46,903 bases of DNA from Acidobacteriota bacterium (GTDB lineage: Bacteria; Acidobacteriota; UBA6911; RPQK01; JADFOI01): assembly GCA_022562935.1 (NCBI GenBank), contig JADFOI010000010.1, forward strand, positions 1 to 46,903, read 5' to 3'. Positions 20,457 through 31,059 of this stretch are shown one piece after another. A program made the translations under genes and the position numbers. The notes beneath the pieces were generated by a model, which saw nothing but the letters and a program-made list of their open reading frames with translations, had not been told where the DNA came from and did not search any database. Positions within the stretch are counted from its first letter, which is position 1; every line of letters starts with the position of its first letter.

Positions 20457-23222
20457 TTACGAGTGCTTGTCCGCAAGCACGGCATGGGCGGCGGCTAGGC
20501 GGGCAATGGGGACTCGAAAGGGAGAGCAGGAAACGTAATCTAAGCCCAGTTGGTGGCACAGGGCAATACTTGCCGGGTCTCCCCCATGCTCACCGCAAAT
20601 GCCGATCTCCAGGTCGGGATGATCCTGACGACCCAGTTTAACGGCCATTTCCATCAATTTTCCCAGTCCAACACGATCGATGGTGGTAAAGGGGTTCTCG
20701 GGCAGGATTCCCTCCTGTAGGTAATGAATCAGGAAGCCTGACTCGGCGTCATCACGGGAGATGCCGAAAACGGTCTGAGTCAGATCATTGGTGCCAAAGG
20801 AGAAGAATTCCGCATACTCGGCCATTTCATCGGCCGTAAGGGCCGCCCGCGGCGTCTCGATCATGGTGCCGAACTTGTACTGGATCTCAATGCCCTCTTG
20901 TGCCATCACCTCTTGAGCCGTACTTTCCAGTTCCCGTTGTTGGACTTTCAACTCGTTCACGTGAGAAGTCAGAGGAATCATGACCTCCGGTTGGACGTCG
21001 ATTCCTGCCTTGGCGCATTTGCAGGCAGCTTCAAAGATGGCCCGAACCTGCATCTTGGTGAGTTCAGGGATCAGGATGCCCAGGCGAACGCCGCGCGTTC
21101 CCAGCATGGGGTTCACTTCCCGAAGGGCCTTCACTCTTTCCAGGTAGGTGGATTTTTCATCAATCTGACTTTGGATCGAGTCTTTTTCCCCGGGTGCCTT
21201 CAGAGTGTAGAGCTGGATCTTCAAATCCGCCAGGTCCTCAATCAACTCATCGTAGGAGGGCAAAAATTCGTGCAACGGCGGGTCCAACAGGCGGATCACG
21301 ACGGGTAGCCCGTCCATGGCCTTGAACAGTCCTTCAAAGTCCTCCCGTTGCAGGGGCAGGAGACTGTCGATGGCCTCCTTTTGTTCCGCTTTGTCCTTGG
21401 TCATGATCATCCGCTGGACGATGGGCAGGCGATGGGACTCAAAAAACATATGCTCGGTTCGGCACAGGCCAATCCCCTGGGCTCCGTATTTGCGGGCCCG
21501 CTCGGCGTCACGGGGGTAATCCGCATTGGTCCAGACCTGAAGTGTGCGAATTTCGTCTGCCCACTCCAAAATCTTCAGCAGATAGGGATTGCTAAAGTCG
21601 GGAATCTCCGTAGATAGCTGGTCCAGGAACACTTCACCCGAGGCCCCGTCCAGTGAAATCCAATCTCCTTCTTGAATCAAAAAATCACCGACTTGCATTT
21701 TTCGGGCTTCCAGGTCGATCTCCAGTTCGATCACGCCCACTACGGCGGGTGTGCCAAACTGACGTGCCACCAAGGCAGCGTGACTGGTCCGGCCGCCCCG
21801 GCTGGTGAGGATACCTTTGGAGGCCAGCATCCCGTGCACATCATCGGGCTTGGTTTCGGGCCGCACCATGATGACATCCTTGCCCTCCTGGGTCGCCCAA
21901 CGTTCGGCGGTATCCGCGTCGAAAGCGACGACGCCCACGGCTGCTCCTGGGGAGACATTGAGACCTGTGGCAATGAGCTGGCTCGTTTCGCGGGCAGCCG
22001 GGTCGAACTGAGGGTGCAAAAAGGTGTCGACCTGGGAGGGCTGCACCCGCTTAACCGCCTCTTCCTTACTGATCAGTCCTTCCTCGACCATGTCCACGGC
22101 AATGCGCACCTCGGCCTGGGCGGTGCGTTTACCGTCCCGGGTCTGGAGAAGCCACAGCTTGCCCTTTTCAATGGTGAACTCCATGTCCTGCATGTTGCGG
22201 TAGTGATTCTCCAGTTGCCGCGAGATGGCCTCAAACTCGGCATAAGCGTTCGGCATCAGCCTTTTTAGCTCACTCAGCGGCTCGGTCTGACGAATTCCAG
22301 CCACCACGTCCTCACCCTGGGCATTGATCAGAAAGTCTCCCTCCAGTTCCGGCTCTCCGGTAGAAGCGTTGCGAGACATGGCCACCCCCGTCGCGCAGTC
22401 GGCCCCCATGTTTCCGAAGACCATGGTTTGGATAGTCACGGCTGTCCCCAGGTCATCGGGAATGCAGGCTGCTTTGCGATAGTCGATGGCTCTTTTGCCC
22501 CTCCAGGACCGAAAGACCGCCTCGGTGGCCAGTTTCAACTGCTGATAAGGATCAACGGGGAACTCTTTACCTGTTTGAGTCTGAATAATGTCCTTGAACT
22601 CTTTCGTTGTAGCGATCCAATCTCGCGCGGAAAGTTCGGCATCGCTACGGACTCCGGCACCTTCTCGCCGTTCGGTGATAACACTTTCAAAAGACTCATC
22701 CGGCACGTCCCATACCACGCTGCCAAACATCTGAACCAACCTTCGATAGGAGTCGTAGACAAAGCGCTCGTCGCCCCCTCGCTTGACCCACGCCTGGGCC
22801 ACCTCATCGTTCAAGCCGATATTGAGAACGGTGTCCATCATGCCGGGCATGGAGAACTTGGCACCCGAGCGGCAGGAAACCAGCAGGGGATTGGCGGAAT
22901 CAGTAAATTTTTTCCCGGTGGCCTCTTCGACGTCAGCGATGGCGGCCAGTTGTTGCTTCCACACTTCATCGGGGAAAACATTCCCAGAGAGGTAGAGGTT
23001 ACAGGCCTCTGTGGTGACGGTAAAACCAGGACAGACCGGGACCCCCAGTCGGGTCATATCAGCCAGGTTGGCACCTTTACCACCCAGTAATCCCCGCACT
23101 TTGTCCCAGTCACCGCCCACCTTTTTCTCCGCCTCCTCCACTTGGTTAAAGCGATAGACGTAGCGGGTGCCCTTGTGCGAGGATTTTCGGGAGGATGCCC
23201 GCTGTTGGGTGGAAATTTTCAT
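20457..23222 (-). CDS. ppdK: Pyruvate, phosphate dikinase
   Basis: This 921-residue enzyme interconverts pyruvate + ATP + Pi with PEP + AMP + PPi. It has an N-terminal ATP-grasp domain (VRGLLGGKGANLADMTRLGVPVCPGFTVT, later GDFLINAQGEDVVAGIRQTEPL), the swivelling domain with the phosphorylated His (GGRTSHAALVARQFGTP), and the C-terminal TIM barrel with TEHMFF, TRGVRLGI and the catalytic Cys in GICGEHGGDPASI. The ATG at 23222 is chosen because it gives the expected N-terminus; the frame further up runs into the next gene. The start lies 4 bp after the stop of the upstream aldolase/phosphatase, so the two are one leftward operon. That pairing points to gluconeogenic use (pyruvate to PEP, then triose to F6P). 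Confidence 0.95.
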   Translation of the reverse strand: MKISTQQRASSRKSSHKGTRYVYRFNQVEEAEKKVGGDWDKVRGLLGGKGANLADMTRLGVPVCPGFTVTTEACNLYLSGNVFPDEVWKQQLAAIADVEEATGKKFTDSANPLLVSCRSGAKFSMPGMMDTVLNIGLNDEVAQAWVKRGGDERFVYDSYRRLVQMFGSVVWDVPDESFESVITERREGAGVRSDAELSARDWIATTKEFKDIIQTQTGKEFPVDPYQQLKLATEAVFRSWRGKRAIDYRKAACIPDDLGTAVTIQTMVFGNMGADCATGVAMSRNASTGEPELEGDFLINAQGEDVVAGIRQTEPLSELKRLMPNAYAEFEAISRQLENHYRNMQDMEFTIEKGKLWLLQTRDGKRTAQAEVRIAVDMVEEGLISKEEAVKRVQPSQVDTFLHPQFDPAARETSQLIATGLNVSPGAAVGVVAFDADTAERWATQEGKDVIMVRPETKPDDVHGMLASKGILTSRGGRTSHAALVARQFGTPAVVGVIELEIDLEARKMQVGDFLIQEGDWISLDGASGEVFLDQLSTEIPDFSNPYLLKILEWADEIRTLQVWTNADYPRDAERARKYGAQGIGLCRTEHMFFESHRLPIVQRMIMTKDKAEQKEAIDSLLPLQREDFEGLFKAMDGLPVVIRLLDPPLHEFLPSYDELIEDLADLKIQLYTLKAPGEKDSIQSQIDEKSTYLERVKALREVNPMLGTRGVRLGILIPELTKMQVRAIFEAACKCAKAGIDVQPEVMIPLTSHVNELKVQQRELESTAQEVMAQEGIEIQYKFGTMIETPRAALTADEMAEYAEFFSFGTNDLTQTVFGISRDDAESGFLIHYLQEGILPENPFTTIDRVGLGKLMEMAVKLGRQDHPDLEIGICGEHGGDPASIALCHQLGLDYVSCSPFRVPIARLAAAHAVLADKHS

Positions 23223-23226
23223 AAGA

Positions 23227-25761
23227 TTATGTTCCCACCAGTTCTTCAGGTGCGACACGAGAAACGGTTCGCTTGGAAACGAATTCAGAGTCGGTGGCCG
23301 TGATCCGGGCCAGAGTCTGAGCCAGAGGATAGGATTGCTCGACTTTTGAACTGCCCACTCCCACCGGGATAAAGTTGCCTCCCTGCGCATCCCAGATGGC
23401 TTTGTTGAGCTCATAAGCACGATCTCGTGCTGTTTCATAGATGGGATCGGCGAACTCGTCGTGGAATCCTCTGATTTCGCCGGAAGTATCCATCGTGATC
23501 CAGGCGGCTACCGCCACGGCACGGCTATTAATGGTGGCAATGGCATCCTGGAAGCCTAACGGTGTCGGGAACATGAAGTGTGAACCCCGGCCGTCGCCTT
23601 GAGTCAGATAGAAACGGTCGCGCATGAAAAGGTTCAAGGCTTGCGCCAGCGGCTCCACGGCCAGCAAGACCGGATCATCCTTGCCCCGGTACTCTCCGCC
23701 CGTAATAACGGACAGCTTCTCTGTTGAGGCGGCCAGCAAGATCTCTTCCAAAGATTCTTGAGTACGTGCAGGGTCCCATTTTTCGGAGGTTCTACTCCAA
23801 ATGCGTTTGACGTTGAACCTTTCAATAGCTCCCAGGAGATTTTGAATACTCAGTGTCTCGGATTCCAGATCCAGAAAACCTCGTTTATGGTGCTCCACAT
23901 CCCAGATTTCTATGACGACTCCCTTGCCGCCTGTTTTCTCAATATGTCTCCTCAGACTTCCGTCCTTGTGCGCGTGGTTAAGGCTCCACCAGATGGGCAG
24001 ATTGAAGGCGGATGGACCGGTTTTGTCCATCGCCAGCAGCCCGATTCGACCGGCTCCCATCAGGGGTAGCTCTGCGAAACCTGGACCCTGTCCGGAGACG
24101 TTTCCGGAAAAAACCTCAAGGGGCTTGTGCCCTTTTCCTTTGCCGCCCTTCCATTCTCGATAGGCTTCTTTCAATCGATCGACCTGACGGCGCTCCGCCT
24201 CTGGGAGAGCTCCTTCCAGGAGTTCCATGAATTCATCGGTGAGATTGGCGAGTTCTTCGGTCGTACTTCCGGCCGATGCCTCTCCTACCAGATCCTGCCC
24301 CAGCCCGTACCACTTGTAACCCAGGATCTCAGCCACCCAGACCTGGCGGAAGAAAGTACGATAGGCAAAAAGATGGATCTCGTTGTTGTCGACTCCTTTG
24401 GAGTGACTCATGAGGAGGTGACCATCATCCCCCACCTCGATGAGTTCTGAGGTGCCATGGATCAACTTCAGGGCCTTGGCCTCCTGAAGGCTGGCTTCAG
24501 CAACGGAACGAAAGTGGTTGGGCGGGCTGGTGTGGCCGACTTTGCCGCCACTGTCCGCTTTAATATCAGAAAGGGTAAAGGAGGCGCGTTGGTTGGTTGC
24601 TTCCAGCAGTCCATCCGGCTCCGGGATGGTTTCAAAGCGTCCCTTCAGCCGTTCCATCTCCCCTACCGCGCATTCTCCAGCCGCTCCGGGATTCAAGTAA
24701 GGTTCGAATCGCTCATGGCTCACCATGTGTTTGATGAGTCTTGTGGCCTCCCGCTGTACGCGGGAGGTTTCCGCTCTGTTTTGGGCAAAAACGTCCACCA
24801 CGTCTTTTTCACTCGGAATACGACCGTGGTCATAGGATTGATAGGCATAGGCCACAACTCGTGCGGCCCCGGGCGAGGAGGAGAGGGTGCGGGCTTCCTG
24901 GAAGGAAGCGGGCATCAACCCCACTCGGTAGTGTCCGTTCTCGCCACCTGGTGCGAAGAAAAACTCTCCGGTTGCCTGAGTGAATTCGCCAATAGCTGGC
25001 AGCCCCGATTGAGATCGTCCAATCAGCACCGGGTCCACACTGCCCGACACGGCGGCGGCCGGTTCCTCGGAGAGCTTACCCTCTCCGAATTTGCCCCGGA
25101 CCGCGAAAACGCGACTCAAACGCCACTCATCAGCATCGGCGATCAGAGCGATCATTTCATTCACGTAGCCCGGTGCGAATTCAAAGGTCCGCACCTCGGG
25201 CTTGTTGGTTTTCAGGTCTTCAATGGATTCAACGATGGCCAGGAAGTCATTTCCTTCGATACGGCGTCCGGAACCCTTATCAGGATTAAAAAATAGGTTA
25301 AAGAGTCCCCGATTAAAAAATCCCCAACTGGCATTGATGGCCTTGGCCACGAAGATGGGTTCTGCTCCTCGTTCCGTGTACGGGAAGTTCAAGCTGCGAA
25401 GATTCAGGGCCGTGGCCTGGTTGTGGGGAGGAAGGCTGGAGATTTTCTCCGCCTCGGCAGAGCCCAGCCCCATGGCCTGAGCTTCTTCCAGAGCCTTGAG
25501 TCCCGCCGCCAGGGCCGCCTGGCCTGACAGGGTGAGGGAATCGGTTTGCTGAAGATCTCCGTTGTAGGTGGACAGGTGCATATGAAGATCTCGACCAAAC
25601 CCCTGAACGAAAGCTCCCCGCAGTAGCCCTTCCTCAATTTTCTGGTCCAGCACCTCACGAGCTACATCGATAATCTGAGCCGGCAACTCTCCGGCCAGGA
25701 AACTTCCCAAATCAAGAGAAATTATATCGATGTTGGATTGCTCCAAAGAACGGTCTTTCAT
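23227..25761 (-). CDS. Double-length archaeal-type fructose-1,6-bisphosphate aldolase/phosphatase
   Basis: This 844-residue protein is two FBPA/P-like domains in tandem. The C-terminal half (about 392-844) carries SDIKADSGGKVGH (D399, D403), VGDDGHLLMSHSKGVDNNEIH (D445, D446), FSGNVSGQGPGFAELP, AMDKTGPSAFNLP and EYRGKDDPV. In the last, Y691 and K694 fit the Tyr/Lys pair that forms the Schiff base in archaeal enzymes. A helical insertion of about 50 residues (497-547) interrupts YGLGQDL...FSGN. The N-terminal half (about 10-375) still shows DPVLIGRSQSGLPAIGEF and GLMPASFQEA but reads SGSVDPV where Y-x-x-K-DDP is expected and GRD where GDD is expected. It is therefore probably catalytically dead and structural or regulatory. 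The single-domain enzyme is about 370-400 residues. It is first in the operon with ppdK. Confidence 0.85.
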   Translation of the reverse strand: MKDRSLEQSNIDIISLDLGSFLAGELPAQIIDVAREVLDQKIEEGLLRGAFVQGFGRDLHMHLSTYNGDLQQTDSLTLSGQAALAAGLKALEEAQAMGLGSAEAEKISSLPPHNQATALNLRSLNFPYTERGAEPIFVAKAINASWGFFNRGLFNLFFNPDKGSGRRIEGNDFLAIVESIEDLKTNKPEVRTFEFAPGYVNEMIALIADADEWRLSRVFAVRGKFGEGKLSEEPAAAVSGSVDPVLIGRSQSGLPAIGEFTQATGEFFFAPGGENGHYRVGLMPASFQEARTLSSSPGAARVVAYAYQSYDHGRIPSEKDVVDVFAQNRAETSRVQREATRLIKHMVSHERFEPYLNPGAAGECAVGEMERLKGRFETIPEPDGLLEATNQRASFTLSDIKADSGGKVGHTSPPNHFRSVAEASLQEAKALKLIHGTSELIEVGDDGHLLMSHSKGVDNNEIHLFAYRTFFRQVWVAEILGYKWYGLGQDLVGEASAGSTTEELANLTDEFMELLEGALPEAERRQVDRLKEAYREWKGGKGKGHKPLEVFSGNVSGQGPGFAELPLMGAGRIGLLAMDKTGPSAFNLPIWWSLNHAHKDGSLRRHIEKTGGKGVVIEIWDVEHHKRGFLDLESETLSIQNLLGAIERFNVKRIWSRTSEKWDPARTQESLEEILLAASTEKLSVITGGEYRGKDDPVLLAVEPLAQALNLFMRDRFYLTQGDGRGSHFMFPTPLGFQDAIATINSRAVAVAAWITMDTSGEIRGFHDEFADPIYETARDRAYELNKAIWDAQGGNFIPVGVGSSKVEQSYPLAQTLARITATDSEFVSKRTVSRVAPEELVGT

Positions 25762-25958
25762 TCTATAGCCTCCCTGGGAAAGTCAAATCATAACATGGTG
25801 CTATAGTTCGTCTTCATTGTAAATGTGGAGCGCTCAATTTTGTGCATTCCTGGTCTTCCCGGACTATGCATGAGTTCTCTACTGCAGCGACGAGATCATT
25901 CGCGCCGGCGTGCGGCACCCGCCCGTGTGAGCCGCAGCGGGTGCTCCCGGCCTCCTTA

Positions 25959-26227
25959 GTGCCTCGTTTCATAGATAGGATGGTGTTTGTGGCGAGCGCG
26001 ACGGCGTCGAGTTCGCGAAGCGATGACGACGCGATGCCAATGTGTATCGCGGAGGAGGAGCGACAAAGAAATTGATGCCGTCCCGCCGCCACCCTTCGGG
26101 CTGATGAGGGTTGCGGGCGACCTCTGTGTCGCTGGTCGTTGTCGATGTCCCTGCATCGCCTTCTCCTTGCTCCTTGATTTCCCTTCGCAAGCCCCGCGAA
26201 CGTCACCCTATCTATGAAGCGAGACAC
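25959..26227. mobile_element. MITE-like element with 27-bp terminal inverted repeats
   Basis: The ends GTGCCTCGTTTCATAGATAGG- (25959-25985) and its imperfect complement (26201-26227) enclose about 215 bp of non-coding sequence with internal inverted stretches. The ends match the arms of the small hairpin at 13070-13138, so both derive from one family. No transposase is present in the window. Confidence 0.6.
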
Positions 26228-26300
26228 TGAACGTACCGTACAGTAGGTTTGCGGCGGTTTTTGTCGCGCGTCGCGGAACGCAGTCAGGCCGGCGCTTTCG

Positions 26301-26343
26301 TCGTTTCGTGACAAGAACCTATGCATAATCCGGGCTAGTGTCG
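26301..26343 (+). repeat. Intergenic repeat, copy of 18598-18641
   Basis: It is a near-identical copy of the 18598-18641 repeat, ending in ATCCGGGCTAGTG. It lies 140 bp upstream of oleA. Confidence 0.55.
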
Positions 26344-26406
26344 TGACCTCGTGCTAGGATTCTGTCTAGGGAACAGGTAAGATAGCTTGGACAGGGCAAC
26401 CTCCCA

Positions 26407-26435
26407 TTGACAAAACTGGGCTTTACGGGTAGGTT
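26407..26435 (+). promoter_or_regulatory. Possible promoter of the ole operon
   Basis: A perfect TTGACA (26407-26412) is followed 17 bp later by TAGGTT (26430-26435). The -10 is poor, so the call is tentative. Confidence 0.3.
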
Positions 26436-26483
26436 TGTACCGAGGCAGATGGCCCTAAGGAGCGGCCCGAAGAGGGACTAAAG

Positions 26484-27521
26484 ATGAGAATTCTGAGTAT
26501 TTCCTACGCTCTCCCCAGTCGGAAAGTTTCCAATGAGAGCCTGATTGAGGAGATCATCGAGAAGAATCGAGGAAATCTCTCTCCTAAAGAACTGGACAGG
26601 GTCGAAAACCAAATGAGGAAGTTCTTCAAGATGTCGGGAACCGTGACCCGCTTCCACAGGGGGATTGGAGAACGGGCGCTGGACTTCGCGGTGAAGGCTG
26701 GAAAGGCCGCTCTCAAGAAGGCGGGAGTCAAGCCGGAGGAGGTCGATCTGCTCATCTACGCCGGAGTGGCCAGAGGATGGATGGAACCCGCCACCGCTAA
26801 CCTGTTTCAAAGTGAACTAGGACTGACATCCGCCACCTGCTTTGATGTGATGGATGCCTGCGCCAGCTGGATTCGAAGTTTGGCCATCGCCAAGAGCTTT
26901 CTGGCCCAGAAGGCCTATAAGTTGGTCATGATCTTGAACTGCGAGTTTATTTTCCGAGAATACGCGAACTTCGAATTCAAGAGCAGCGACGAAGTGGAGA
27001 ACGCTTTTTCGGCCTTTACCATCGGCGAGGCCGCAACGGCTACCCTCCTGGCCTCAAACGGCGCTGAGGACGATTCCTTCTTCTCCTTCAAGACCTGGGG
27101 AGAAAAGCACGGGTTGTGCAAGATCCCTCTCCCCAATGCGGATGACTTTTCACCTCAAAATGTCTCTGATGGCCTTAAACCCATGTCTTTTTTTACCATG
27201 CCTGGAGAATTGCTTTCTTTCACCGTCAGAAAGCTGGTGAGTCATTTCAGAGAAAGTCAGGCCATCGCCAGTAAAGTACATCAAATTGTCATTGGTCATG
27301 CCGTCAGTGTGGCCTCCACCTCCAGAGTGATTAAACTGCTGGGTCTCGATCCGAGCAGTGTTTTTGAAACCCATTCCCGATTTGGCAACACCGTAGCGGC
27401 ATCTCTTCCGCTGGCACTGGCCGTGGCCGAGGCGGAAGGCAAGCTTGTGCGAGGCATGAGGGTATTGCTGCTCATGGGAAGTGCAGGTGTGAGCACGGCT
27501 GTAGGTTCCTTTACCTATTAG
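26484..27521 (+). CDS. oleA: OleA-type thiolase, head-to-head acyl-CoA condensation
   Basis: This 345-residue thiolase-superfamily enzyme resembles ketosynthase III. The catalytic Cys lies in FDVMDACASWIRS (C126), the His in VIGHAVSVAS and the Asn in RFGNTVAASLP. In OleA these join two fatty acyl-CoAs head to head, giving a 2-alkyl-3-ketoacyl acid. On its own it could pass as a FabH-like protein. The three downstream genes, in the exact order and types of oleBCD with two ATGA overlaps among them, decide the assignment. The ATG is preceded by GAGGGA. Confidence 0.88.
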   Translation: MRILSISYALPSRKVSNESLIEEIIEKNRGNLSPKELDRVENQMRKFFKMSGTVTRFHRGIGERALDFAVKAGKAALKKAGVKPEEVDLLIYAGVARGWMEPATANLFQSELGLTSATCFDVMDACASWIRSLAIAKSFLAQKAYKLVMILNCEFIFREYANFEFKSSDEVENAFSAFTIGEAATATLLASNGAEDDSFFSFKTWGEKHGLCKIPLPNADDFSPQNVSDGLKPMSFFTMPGELLSFTVRKLVSHFRESQAIASKVHQIVIGHAVSVASTSRVIKLLGLDPSSVFETHSRFGNTVAASLPLALAVAEAEGKLVRGMRVLLLMGSAGVSTAVGSFTY

Positions 27522-27548
27522 ATTTCTCCCACCACTCATGACTCACAG

Positions 27549-28442
27549 ATGAGCTTTTCTGTGGATCAAGTCAAGCACCTCTACGATTTTCAATCCCACT
27601 ACCTCAACCGCCGGGGGTATCAATATCATTACCTGGATGAAGGGCAGGGTGCGCCTCTGGTGATGCTTCACGGAAATCCCAGTTGGTCCTTCATGTATCG
27701 GGAGCTGGTTCGAGCTTTTCGAGATACCCACCGTACCGTGGTGCCCGATCACATGGGTTGCGGACTTTCCGACAAGCCTCCCAGTGGGGCATATCACTAT
27801 ACGCTGGAGGAGCGGGTCGCTGATCTGGAAGCACTGATGGATGAAAGGGGCATCCACTCCAACATCACCCTGATCATGCACGATTGGGGCGGTGCCATCG
27901 GAATGACCTATGCCGCCCGTCACCCCTCCAGGATTGGAAGGCTTATCGTCCTCAACACAGCGGCCTTTCTTCTGCCTCCGGGAAAGTCTCTTCATTGGTC
28001 CCTTTCCCTGTGTAGAAACTCCCGGGTGGTCCAGTTCTTCATCCTTAGATTCAACGCCTTTGCGCGAATGGCCGGGTATTGGGGTTGCCGGCAGCCGATG
28101 CCCAGAGAGATTCGCCGTGCCTATCGGGCTCCTTATGACTCCTGGCAGAACAGGATCGCCACGCTGCGCTTTGTCCAGGACATTCCCCTTACTTCTACGG
28201 ATCATTCCTATGGGCTGCTGCAGCAAACCCAGGAAAATCTCTATCGGTTCCGGCAAACACCGATGCTGATTTGCTGGGGAGAACGGGATTTCATCTTCGA
28301 CGGTGACTTTCTCAGGGAGTGGATCAGGCGTTTTCCCAAGGCCCAGGTCCATCGGTTTCCAGGGGCGGGACACTATGTTTTGGAAGAACTGCCCGCGACT
28401 ATCGTCCCGTTGATCCGCGATTTTCTGGCAACTCACTCATGA
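27549..28442 (+). CDS. oleB: OleB-type alpha/beta hydrolase (beta-lactone decarboxylase)
   Basis: This 297-residue alpha/beta hydrolase is of the haloalkane dehalogenase type. It has the oxyanion region MLHGNPSWSFMYREL, the nucleophile Asp112 in MHDWGGAIGM, the lid region with WPF-like aromatic residues, and the catalytic His in GAGHYVLEE near the C-terminus. In Ole pathways OleB decarboxylates the beta-lactone made by OleC to a cis-alkene. The alternative is a plain dehalogenase, but the operon context makes that unlikely. Its stop overlaps the oleC start (ATGA). Confidence 0.87.
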   Translation: MSFSVDQVKHLYDFQSHYLNRRGYQYHYLDEGQGAPLVMLHGNPSWSFMYRELVRAFRDTHRTVVPDHMGCGLSDKPPSGAYHYTLEERVADLEALMDERGIHSNITLIMHDWGGAIGMTYAARHPSRIGRLIVLNTAAFLLPPGKSLHWSLSLCRNSRVVQFFILRFNAFARMAGYWGCRQPMPREIRRAYRAPYDSWQNRIATLRFVQDIPLTSTDHSYGLLQQTQENLYRFRQTPMLICWGERDFIFDGDFLREWIRRFPKAQVHRFPGAGHYVLEELPATIVPLIRDFLATHS

Positions 28443-30064
28443 GCAGCCCCACCAATTTCGCCGCCCATCTTTCTATCCTGTCCATCCAGCGGCCCTCCCA
28501 GCCGGCTCTTCTCTCCCGGCACGGCGTTCTCACCTTTCGTGAACTGGAGGAAAGGAGCAACTGTTGTGCGCAAGGGCTCAAAGAGATCGGAATTCAACGG
28601 GGTACGCGCACCGTGTTGATGGTCACTCCAGGTGTCGAGTTTCTGGTTTTGAGCTTTGCCCTCATCAAAATCAATGCGGTGCTTGTTTTGGTGGATCCCG
28701 GCATGGGATGGCAGAACCTCAAGAAGAGTTTGGAACAGGCAAAGCCTGAAGCGTTTGTGGGTACCCCTTTGGCCCAGATGGCCCGCATCTTTTTTGGGTG
28801 GGGCCGAGGCAGCGTGAAGACTTTTCTTACCGTGGGGAGATTCCGACCCTGCAGCGGGTATTCCTTCACTCAGGTGATGCATTTGGGTGCTGGTGGCGGG
28901 GAATTTGCTGCTGAGCCTTCAGAAAGTGATGATCTGGCTGCCATTGTGTTTACCTCAGGCAGCACCGGCAGACCGAAAGGAGTCGTTTATACCCATGGGA
29001 TGTTCTCCTCCCAGGCGGCCCTTATGCGAGATTCCTTCCAGATCGAAGCCGGTGAGGTGGACCTGGCTACTTTTCCGCTCTTTGCCCTTTTCGATCCGGC
29101 GCTACAGATGACCACGGTGTTCCCCGAGATGGATTTTACCCGGCCAGGTCAAGTCGATCCCTTGAAGATCATTTCTCCTATCCAGGAATATAAAGTCACC
29201 CATATGTTTGGGTCCCCGGCTCTACTGGACCGAGTTTCTCGTTACGGAAAAGGTCGGGGAATCAAGCTCCCCACACTGCGGCGCGTTCTCTCGGCCGGGG
29301 CGCCGGTGCCGGCCAAGGTTCTTGAGCGCTTCGCCACTTTGCTGGATCCGGATGCGGAGATTCACACTCCCTATGGAGCTACGGAAGCGTTGCCGGTGTG
29401 CTCGATCACGAGTCGTGAGTTATCCAGCCAGGTCGACAACCGACCCGGCCGGGGGGTTTGTGTCGGGCCTCCCCTTGCGGGAATCCATTTGGCTGTCATT
29501 AGAATCGATGACGGACCCATCCCTCTCTGGTCCGAGGACCTTCGGGTGCCGGCGGGTGAAATCGGGGAACTGGTGGTGTGGGGCCCGAATGTTTCCACCG
29601 AGTATTTCGGCATACCGGAGGCCAATGACCTGGCCAAAATTCAGAGCCCCGAAGGAATTCGCCACCGGATGGGTGACCTGGGCTATAGGGACGAGGAGGG
29701 CCGAGTCTGGTTCTGTGGCCGCAAGTCCCAGCGGGTGATTACTCCACAGGGAACGCTGTTTACGGTAGCCTGTGAAGGCATTTTCAATGAGCACCCAAAG
29801 GTTTATCGAAGCGCGCTAGTGGGGGTGGGAGAGCCGCCCCAACAGAAACCCGTGCTGTGTGTGGAATTGGAAAATGATGGGAAGAAAAAAGACAAAGGAT
29901 CACCACAGCTCAGGAAGGAGATTTTGGAACTGGGGGCCCACGATGCCCAGACCAAGCAAATCCGGACACTCCTGTTTCATCCCTCCTTCCCGGTTGATGT
30001 GAGGCACAACGCCAAGATTTTTCGCGAGCAACTGGCTCGTTGGGCTAGCAAGAAGGTTTCATGA
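28439..30064 (+). CDS. oleC: OleC-type AMP-dependent beta-lactone synthetase
   Basis: This 541-residue ANL-superfamily adenylating enzyme has the P-loop-like IVFTSGSTGRPKGVVYTHGMF, IHTPYGATEALPV, MGDLGYRDEEGRVWFCGRKSQRV and a short C-terminal domain with the lysine-bearing HNAKIFREQL. OleC activates the beta-hydroxy acid from OleD with ATP and closes the beta-lactone ring. The start at 28439 overlaps oleB by ATGA; an earlier in-frame start would intrude on oleB. The end overlaps oleD by ATGA. Confidence 0.88.
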   Translation: MSSPTNFAAHLSILSIQRPSQPALLSRHGVLTFRELEERSNCCAQGLKEIGIQRGTRTVLMVTPGVEFLVLSFALIKINAVLVLVDPGMGWQNLKKSLEQAKPEAFVGTPLAQMARIFFGWGRGSVKTFLTVGRFRPCSGYSFTQVMHLGAGGGEFAAEPSESDDLAAIVFTSGSTGRPKGVVYTHGMFSSQAALMRDSFQIEAGEVDLATFPLFALFDPALQMTTVFPEMDFTRPGQVDPLKIISPIQEYKVTHMFGSPALLDRVSRYGKGRGIKLPTLRRVLSAGAPVPAKVLERFATLLDPDAEIHTPYGATEALPVCSITSRELSSQVDNRPGRGVCVGPPLAGIHLAVIRIDDGPIPLWSEDLRVPAGEIGELVVWGPNVSTEYFGIPEANDLAKIQSPEGIRHRMGDLGYRDEEGRVWFCGRKSQRVITPQGTLFTVACEGIFNEHPKVYRSALVGVGEPPQQKPVLCVELENDGKKKDKGSPQLRKEILELGAHDAQTKQIRTLLFHPSFPVDVRHNAKIFREQLARWASKKVS

Positions 30065-31059
30065 AAGCACTGGTGACGGGTGGAGGTGGCTTTCTGGGGG
30101 GAGTCATCGTGCAGCAATTGCTCGAGCAGGGCTACGCAGTGCGGAGTTTCTCCCGGGGAAGCTACCCTCTGCTTGAGGCCCTGGGTGTGGAGATCTCTCG
30201 AGGAAATCTGGCTGAGGCGGAAGCCGTCCAGGAAGCCTGCCAGGATTGTCAGATTGTTTTTCATGTCGCGGCCAAAGCGGGAATCTGGGGGAATAAGGAT
30301 GCCTACTATCGGACGAACGTCACCGGTACGGATAACGTCATCTCCGCCTGCAGGGCTTTGGGGATTTCACGGTTGGTCTATACCAGTACGCCGAGTGTGG
30401 TCTTTGACGGACGGAACCTGGACGGAGTGGATGAGCGGGTACCCTATGCTTCCGACTACAAGTCGGCTTACCCGGCCACCAAGGCTACTGCCGAACGGAT
30501 GATTCTGGCTGCCAATGATGAACGGCTGGCCACCGTAGCACTGCGGCCCCATCTCATCTGGGGGCCTGGGGATACCCATCTGGTTCCCGGCATCCTGGCG
30601 CGAGGACGGGCCGGCAGGCTGCGCAGAATCGGGAAGGTCTCCAATCTGGTCGACTTTACCTATGTTGAGGATGCAGCCCAGGCCCATCTTTTAGCGGCTG
30701 CTCGCCTTTCACCCGGTTCACCGATTGCGGGAAGGGTATTTTTCATTTCACAGGATGAGCCGGTTCCTCTTTGGGACTTTGTCAATCGTATCCTGGAGGC
30801 AGCCGGCCTTCCCCCTGTGACCGGGACGGTCTCTCCCCGTTTGGCCTATGCGGTCGGCTGGCTGTGCGAGGTCCTCTATGGGAGACTGGGACTCAAGGGC
30901 GAGCCTCCCATGACACGCTTTCTGGCCGAGGAACTGGCCACCAGCCACTGGTTTGACATCAGTGCTGCCCGGCAGGAACTGAGTTACCAACCCAAGGTCA
31001 GCGTCGAAGAGGGGCTCGAACGGCTCAAAGCCTGGCTGGATGCCGAGGGTCAGTCCTAA
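30061..31059 (+). CDS. oleD: OleD-type NADPH-dependent 2-alkyl-3-ketoacid reductase
   Basis: This 332-residue extended SDR / 3-beta-HSD family enzyme has the nucleotide motif VTGGGGFLGGVIVQQL, the very characteristic OleD stretch VYTSTPSVVFDGRNLDGVDERVPYASDY, and the catalytic YPATKATAE. It reduces the OleA product to the beta-hydroxy acid for OleC. It is the last gene of the operon, and its 3' end overlaps the convergent amidohydrolase gene by 4 bp. Confidence 0.9.
   Translation: MKALVTGGGGFLGGVIVQQLLEQGYAVRSFSRGSYPLLEALGVEISRGNLAEAEAVQEACQDCQIVFHVAAKAGIWGNKDAYYRTNVTGTDNVISACRALGISRLVYTSTPSVVFDGRNLDGVDERVPYASDYKSAYPATKATAERMILAANDERLATVALRPHLIWGPGDTHLVPGILARGRAGRLRRIGKVSNLVDFTYVEDAAQAHLLAAARLSPGSPIAGRVFFISQDEPVPLWDFVNRILEAAGLPPVTGTVSPRLAYAVGWLCEVLYGRLGLKGEPPMTRFLAEELATSHWFDISAARQELSYQPKVSVEEGLERLKAWLDAEGQS

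Follow-up and report, generated by a model that had tools for sequence, protein, structure and literature searches.

A double-domain protein of the fructose-bisphosphate aldolase/phosphatase superfamily in Acidobacteriota with a degenerate yet conserved N-terminal half

RESULTS

The window analyzed here, i.e., the whole stretch of 46,903 nucleotides of contig JADFOI010000010.1 (Acidobacteriota bacterium, assembly GCA_022562935.1), carries at positions 23227 to 25761 of the reverse strand a single frame of 844 codons, free of stop codons and frameshifts and with AGGGAGG directly upstream of its ATG. The encoded protein consists of two FBPase_3 (FBP aldolase/phosphatase, FBPA/P) domains in tandem. 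In a Pfam search, the whole protein matched FBPase_3 alone (4.5e-76, 256.8 bits, in three stretches; gathering cut-off, 25), and the two halves did so when searched separately, with 6.3e-20 and 72.1 bits for residues 1 to 385 and 7.7e-56 and 190.2 bits for residues 386 to 844. As single-domain relatives comprise 362 to 386 residues, the first-pass annotation of this gene as an FBPA/P of double length was correct. The convincing matches of a PDB sequence search with the 844-residue protein were FBPA/P chains only. Against the NCBIfam equivalog NF041126, the protein scored 245.4 bits in three stretches, below the cut-off of 520 bits; given this shortfall against the curated FBPA/P cut-off, plain fructose-1,6-bisphosphatase is the likely standard annotation.

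The tandem gene lies directly upstream of a gene for pyruvate phosphate dikinase (PPDK; positions 20457 to 23222, reverse strand; domains PPDK_N, PEP-utilizers, and PEP-utilizers_C), whose ATG is located 4 nt past the tandem stop codon in an operon-like arrangement. The same gene order, with PPDK after the tandem gene, is seen in both congeneric genomes; PPDK was absent from the flanking genes at the examined loci of other families. On the other side, the tandem gene is preceded by roughly 700 bp (positions 25780 to 26480) that contain no convincing gene, a 170-residue ORF at 25814 to 26326 being doubtful, and an Rfam scan of the window returned zero matches. Further upstream and divergent from the tandem gene, a set of OleA/OleB/OleC/OleD-like genes occupies positions 26484 to 31059 of the forward strand, with thiolase-fold, alpha/beta hydrolase, AMP-binding, and 3-beta-HSD domains; ORFs matching this set in size and order are present at both congeneric loci, and it probably serves long-chain olefin synthesis.

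The C-terminal half (residues 390 to 844; positions 23230 to 24594, reverse strand) is the domain in which the metal-ligand and Schiff-base positions are kept. In the alignment it retains D403, H410, the invariant GDD motif at residues 444 to 446 (24424 to 24432, reverse strand; equivalent to G51-D52-D53), Q489, D579, K580, Y691, K694, D695, and D696, which includes the Y691/K694 pair, the GDD motif, and the early aspartates that had been noted at first reading. The segment Y691-x-G-K694-D695-D696 (23674 to 23691, reverse strand) corresponds to Y229, K232, D233, and D234 and is invariant in all tandem C-halves. In Thermoproteus numbering, D11, H18, D52, D53, Y91, Q95, D132, K133, Y229, K232, D233, D234, and R266 are kept in nine of nine C-halves; D11, H18, D52, D53, Q95, D132, D233, and D234 are the positions that we take to be metal ligands. 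Between the GQDL and FSGN motifs the C-half carries an insertion of about 53 residues (residues ~496 to 548; 24118 to 24276, reverse strand), for which helices are predicted at 501 to 505, 509 to 518, 521 to 524, and 527 to 538, in agreement with the helical insertion of about 50 residues described earlier. According to the alignment, this insertion is present in every tandem C-half and in none of the single-domain enzymes.

The N-terminal half (residues 1 to 389; 24595 to 25761, reverse strand) is a degenerate FBPase_3 domain. Ser241 (codon at 25039 to 25041, reverse strand) occupies the position of the Schiff-base lysine (Lys232 of Thermoproteus), as the first-pass annotation had observed; at this position, 10 tandem N-halves display Ser (eight cases), Ala (one), or Gly (one) and never Lys, the residue found in all single-domain enzymes compared. 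One alignment places Val at the tyrosine position of all 10 N-halves, and another leaves a gap there. Overall, the N-half has lost the catalytic set of the C-half except D11 and D53, and in 2 of 10 cases D234. Predicted alone, with 10 N-halves aligned to 24 single-domain enzymes as input, it yielded a model with a mean pLDDT of 76 and a pTM of 0.79, whose significant PDB matches were FBPA/P entries only (3r1m, E value of 1.5e-23, TM-score of 0.78 by target). The single-domain rows may have aided this model, and the Pfam score is accordingly the independent support for the fold. In the full-length model the pLDDT was 65.6 and poor at N-half residues 140 to 282; the convincing matches were still to FBPA/P only. 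Profile search and predicted fold together rule out that the N-half adopts an unrelated fold.

This half is ancient and under strong purifying selection. Nei-Gojobori dN/dS values for pairs of tandem genes were 0.08 to 0.21 for the N-half and 0.05 to 0.12 for the C-half, and 149 of the 389 N-half residues, loop motifs included, do not vary among nine full-length tandem proteins. Low dN/dS and invariant residues indicate that the N-half is not in decay and does not evolve as a scaffold free of constraint. Conservation is densest in a tandem-specific block at residues 127 to 183 (PYTERGAEPI...WGFFNRxLFNLFFNPDKGSGRRIExND...; 25213 to 25383, reverse strand), in which 40 of 57 residues are invariant and which takes the place of D132/K133 and the following loop of active enzymes. 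The mean identity between N- and C-halves is 16.7%, compared with 19.8% between N-halves and single-domain enzymes and about 30% between C-halves and single-domain enzymes; a recent self-duplication is ruled out by the N-C value. In a tree of the halves, each half is monophyletic, with long stems on both sides that raised long-branch warnings. The earlier description of a protein fused to its own dead copy thus stands in part: the N-half is catalytically degenerate, but it is no recent copy and not plainly dead weight.

Losses in the two halves were compared at positions whose conservation reaches at least 95% among 32 single-domain enzymes. Twelve such positions are conserved in both halves, 18 in the N-half only, 44 in the C-half only, and 24 in neither. 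The C-only set includes H18, D52, Y91, Q95, D96, F102-S-G-N105, D132, K133, Y229, K232, D233, D234, R266, S268, and H269 (Thermoproteus numbering). Conversely, all 10 N-halves keep E120, R121, and E124 exactly where the C-half has lost them, and all 10 keep R240, Q242, P246, A247, G249, and E250, of which the C-halves retain none except, in part, E250. Specifically, the family motif R-x-Q-S-G-L-P-A-x-G-E is present in the N-half as RSQSGLPAIGE (residues 249 to 259; 24985 to 25017, reverse strand) and deleted from the C-half, where every complete sequence (nine of nine) has a five-residue gap at A701-V702-E703 (23653 to 23661, reverse strand), changing PVLLVRAQSGLPAVGE of Thermoproteus to PVLLAVEPLAQ. 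Across the protein as a whole the test for complementary loss is weak, with a Fisher p of 0.028 in this comparison, 0.03 to 0.05 at the 95%/80% thresholds, and 0.06 to 0.4 at others, and a threshold-dependent circular-shift fraction of 0.014 to 0.23; since this association is modest, the case rests on the specific R-x-Q-S-G-L-P motif and not on the overall test. Lost in both halves are the Asp of FDGPP, which is Asn or Ser in all complete C-halves, and the Tyr of the C-terminal MEY motif, although the alignment of this Tyr is uncertain, Tyr811 lying three residues from the matching Glu. The QSGLP loop with Q242 presumably binds substrate across the FBPA/P dimer interface. D234 and Q242 are situated at opposite ends of one short strand (predicted at residues 245 to 249 in the N-half), so that Q242, if it touches substrate, would reach the site of the neighbor more easily than its own; this rough, model-based geometry favors a role of Q242 in trans.

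A search of related genomes for the same fusion revealed nine more that carry the tandem in an open frame, with 59 to 95% identity and one frame truncated by a contig end; the frames comprise 826 to 849 residues across independent assemblies and several genera. Two congeneric genomes carry it with 95% and 83% identity and four genomes from a different family within the order with 64 to 65%, and a second genus of the family has a C-terminal fragment at a contig end. A species-genome collection added an Acidobacteria MAG (59%), a Poribacteria-labeled MAG (68%), and a Nitrospinota-labeled MAG (65%, in a frame that the contig end truncates). FBPase_3 was found in 48 of 396 Acidobacteriota genomes, with 47 genomes above the Pfam cut-off, and intact proteins from beyond the two tandem families have one domain only. 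A profile of the N-half, run on the phyla or class to which these three MAGs belong (L030, L032, and L031, in the order of the counts), matched one genome in each set of 85, 5, and 149, always within a tandem frame. Unfused genes of the N- or C-type were found neither among the 396 Acidobacteriota genomes by Pfam nor in those 85, 5, and 149 genomes by the N-half profile. The tandem is patchily distributed over the phyla, which suggests horizontal transfer, with binning error being possible for single MAGs. Two further observations concern these genomes. In the bin of the window, the first 173 residues of the protein occur once more at a contig end, with 93% identity (L002; G000:C187:2-520, reverse strand); this copy may be a paralogue, come from a variant strain, or be contamination. 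In the L075 region, a 746-residue open frame with two PFK domain matches (G398:C746:815-2728) represents a tandem PFK in a genome that carries the tandem FBPA/P as well.

Among the 11 tandem-carrying genomes, all draft MAGs in which an absence is less than full proof, eight lack both GlpX and class I FBPase. GlpX is present in one and class I FBPase in two, namely the window's own genome (G000) and, as a fragment, G005; class II and class I FBP aldolase (FBA) occur in one of the 11 each. As G000 has a class I FBPase as well, the tandem enzyme need not be essential there. In four drafts of family f3 (G008, G012, G015, and G017; 90 to 98% complete), class I (PF00274) and class II FBA, PFK, and classical FBPase were not found. 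DeoC-family matches in G000, G002, G008, G012, and the Poribacteria-labeled G396 are LsrF-type thiolases and not FBA, whereas one in the Nitrospinota-labeled genome is an FbaB-type aldolase; of the four f3 drafts, this classification covered G008 and G012, the DeoC-family matches in G015 and G017 score like theirs, and G005 and G397 have such matches as well. In the four f3 drafts, the tandem protein is the only recognized candidate for the FBP aldolase and FBPase steps.

DISCUSSION

The protein is a double-domain variant in the FBPA/P superfamily that most likely works like FBPA/P. Because the two halves look complementary, we favor an obligate pseudo-dimer in which both contribute to a single composite active site, and the internal pseudo-dimer already proposed at first reading is the most natural interpretation. 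An ancestral symmetric FBPA/P dimer would have turned into one asymmetric chain acting as a gluconeogenic FBP aldolase/phosphatase, in which a single composite site per chain replaces the two equivalent sites per dimer. The C-half would carry the chemistry with its Mg2+ ligands, the Schiff-base Lys694, and Tyr691, while the N-half would keep the fold, act as a permanent dimer partner, probably contribute its R-x-Q-S-G-L-P loop in trans to the active site of the C-half, and stabilize or gate the assembly via its new conserved surfaces. We give this asymmetric gluconeogenic pseudo-dimer, with an N-half probably lending its loop in trans, a probability of roughly one half; that the tandem protein is catalytically active, serves gluconeogenesis, and forms the trans contact is what we infer within it. 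A more speculative form, which we hold only tentatively, would combine the composite site of such a subfunctionalized fusion and its N-half loop with the vacated catalytic pocket of the N-half, the NPDKGSGRRIE block, serving as an effector site, so that one-way gluconeogenesis would be regulated.

The strongest alternative, possible though again tentative, is that the N-half is an allosteric module sensing a sugar phosphate, a nucleotide, or PEP via the WGFFNR...NPDKGSGRRIE segment, the C-half site being independent. The nearly invariant, tandem-specific block at the place of D132/Lys133 and the adjoining loop and the purifying selection on the N-half are in line with such a module, and eukaryotic phosphofructokinase, in which duplicated catalytic sites became effector sites, offers a parallel; it leaves unexplained, however, why the C-half has lost R240-Q242-P246-A247 and the N-half retains exactly these residues. 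A changed substrate, with the protein acting as phosphatase and/or aldolase on a related compound such as another ketose bisphosphate instead of FBP, appears unlikely. It would account for the replaced FDGPP Asp, the deleted R-x-Q motif, the score of 245 bits against an equivalog cut-off of 520, and the identity of only about 30% between C-half and single-domain enzymes, but four tandem genomes have no other recognized FBPase, class I/II FBP aldolase, or PFK, such that something must supply F6P, and PPDK, which shares the operon-like unit with the tandem gene in the genus of the window, is a gluconeogenic enzyme. That the N-half is mere filler, a fold-stabilizing remnant without a role in catalysis or regulation, would fit the disappearance of most of its catalytic residues, but is improbable in view of its invariant residues and loop motifs and its low dN/dS. 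An assembly or annotation artefact is hardly credible: although all contigs come from MAGs and the Poribacteria and Nitrospinota labels could be binning errors, the intact frame recurs in independent assemblies of several genera, and its presence in nine further genomes refutes artefact, frameshift, and chance.

The asymmetric pseudo-dimer relates to known systems as follows. Both tandem halves share the fold of the bifunctional FBPA/P of archaea and bacteria (FBPase class V; PF01950; 3t2b to 3t2g of Thermoproteus neutrophilus, 3r1m and 1umg of Sulfolobus tokodaii), and the C-half additionally shares the Schiff-base Lys/Tyr pair, the GDD motif, and the other metal-ligand positions. In contrast to these enzymes of about 370 residues, the tandem protein has two fused domains, an N-half without the catalytic set, and a C-half that has the insertion but neither R-x-Q-S-G-L-P nor the FDGPP Asp; the motif R-x-Q-x-x-x-P-A-x-G-E, which belongs within the Schiff-base domain, is found in the N-half only. 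Since several defining features are thus not united in one domain, we do not assign the protein to the FBPA/P equivalog. Single-domain FBPA/P of other Acidobacteriota (e.g., L010 and L035) is homologous to both tandem halves over about 365 residues and has the complete motif set. Eukaryotic phosphofructokinase, likewise a fused tandem with one catalytic and one regulatory half, differs in its unrelated fold and opposite metabolic direction, and an effector is known for PFK only.

In FBPA/P, one site performs two chemistries by moving loops. A variant with these loops split onto nonequivalent halves would allow the halves to be mutated singly and within-subunit contacts to be told from those across the interface. 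The occurrence of FBPA/P in bacteria was already known (PMC3267732), and FBPA/P has been put forward as the ancestral enzyme of gluconeogenesis (Say and Fuchs 2010, as cited in PMC3267732). As the only recognized candidate for both FBP aldolase and FBPase in several uncultivated Acidobacteriota, the tandem protein bears on the way in which these organisms may synthesize sugars.
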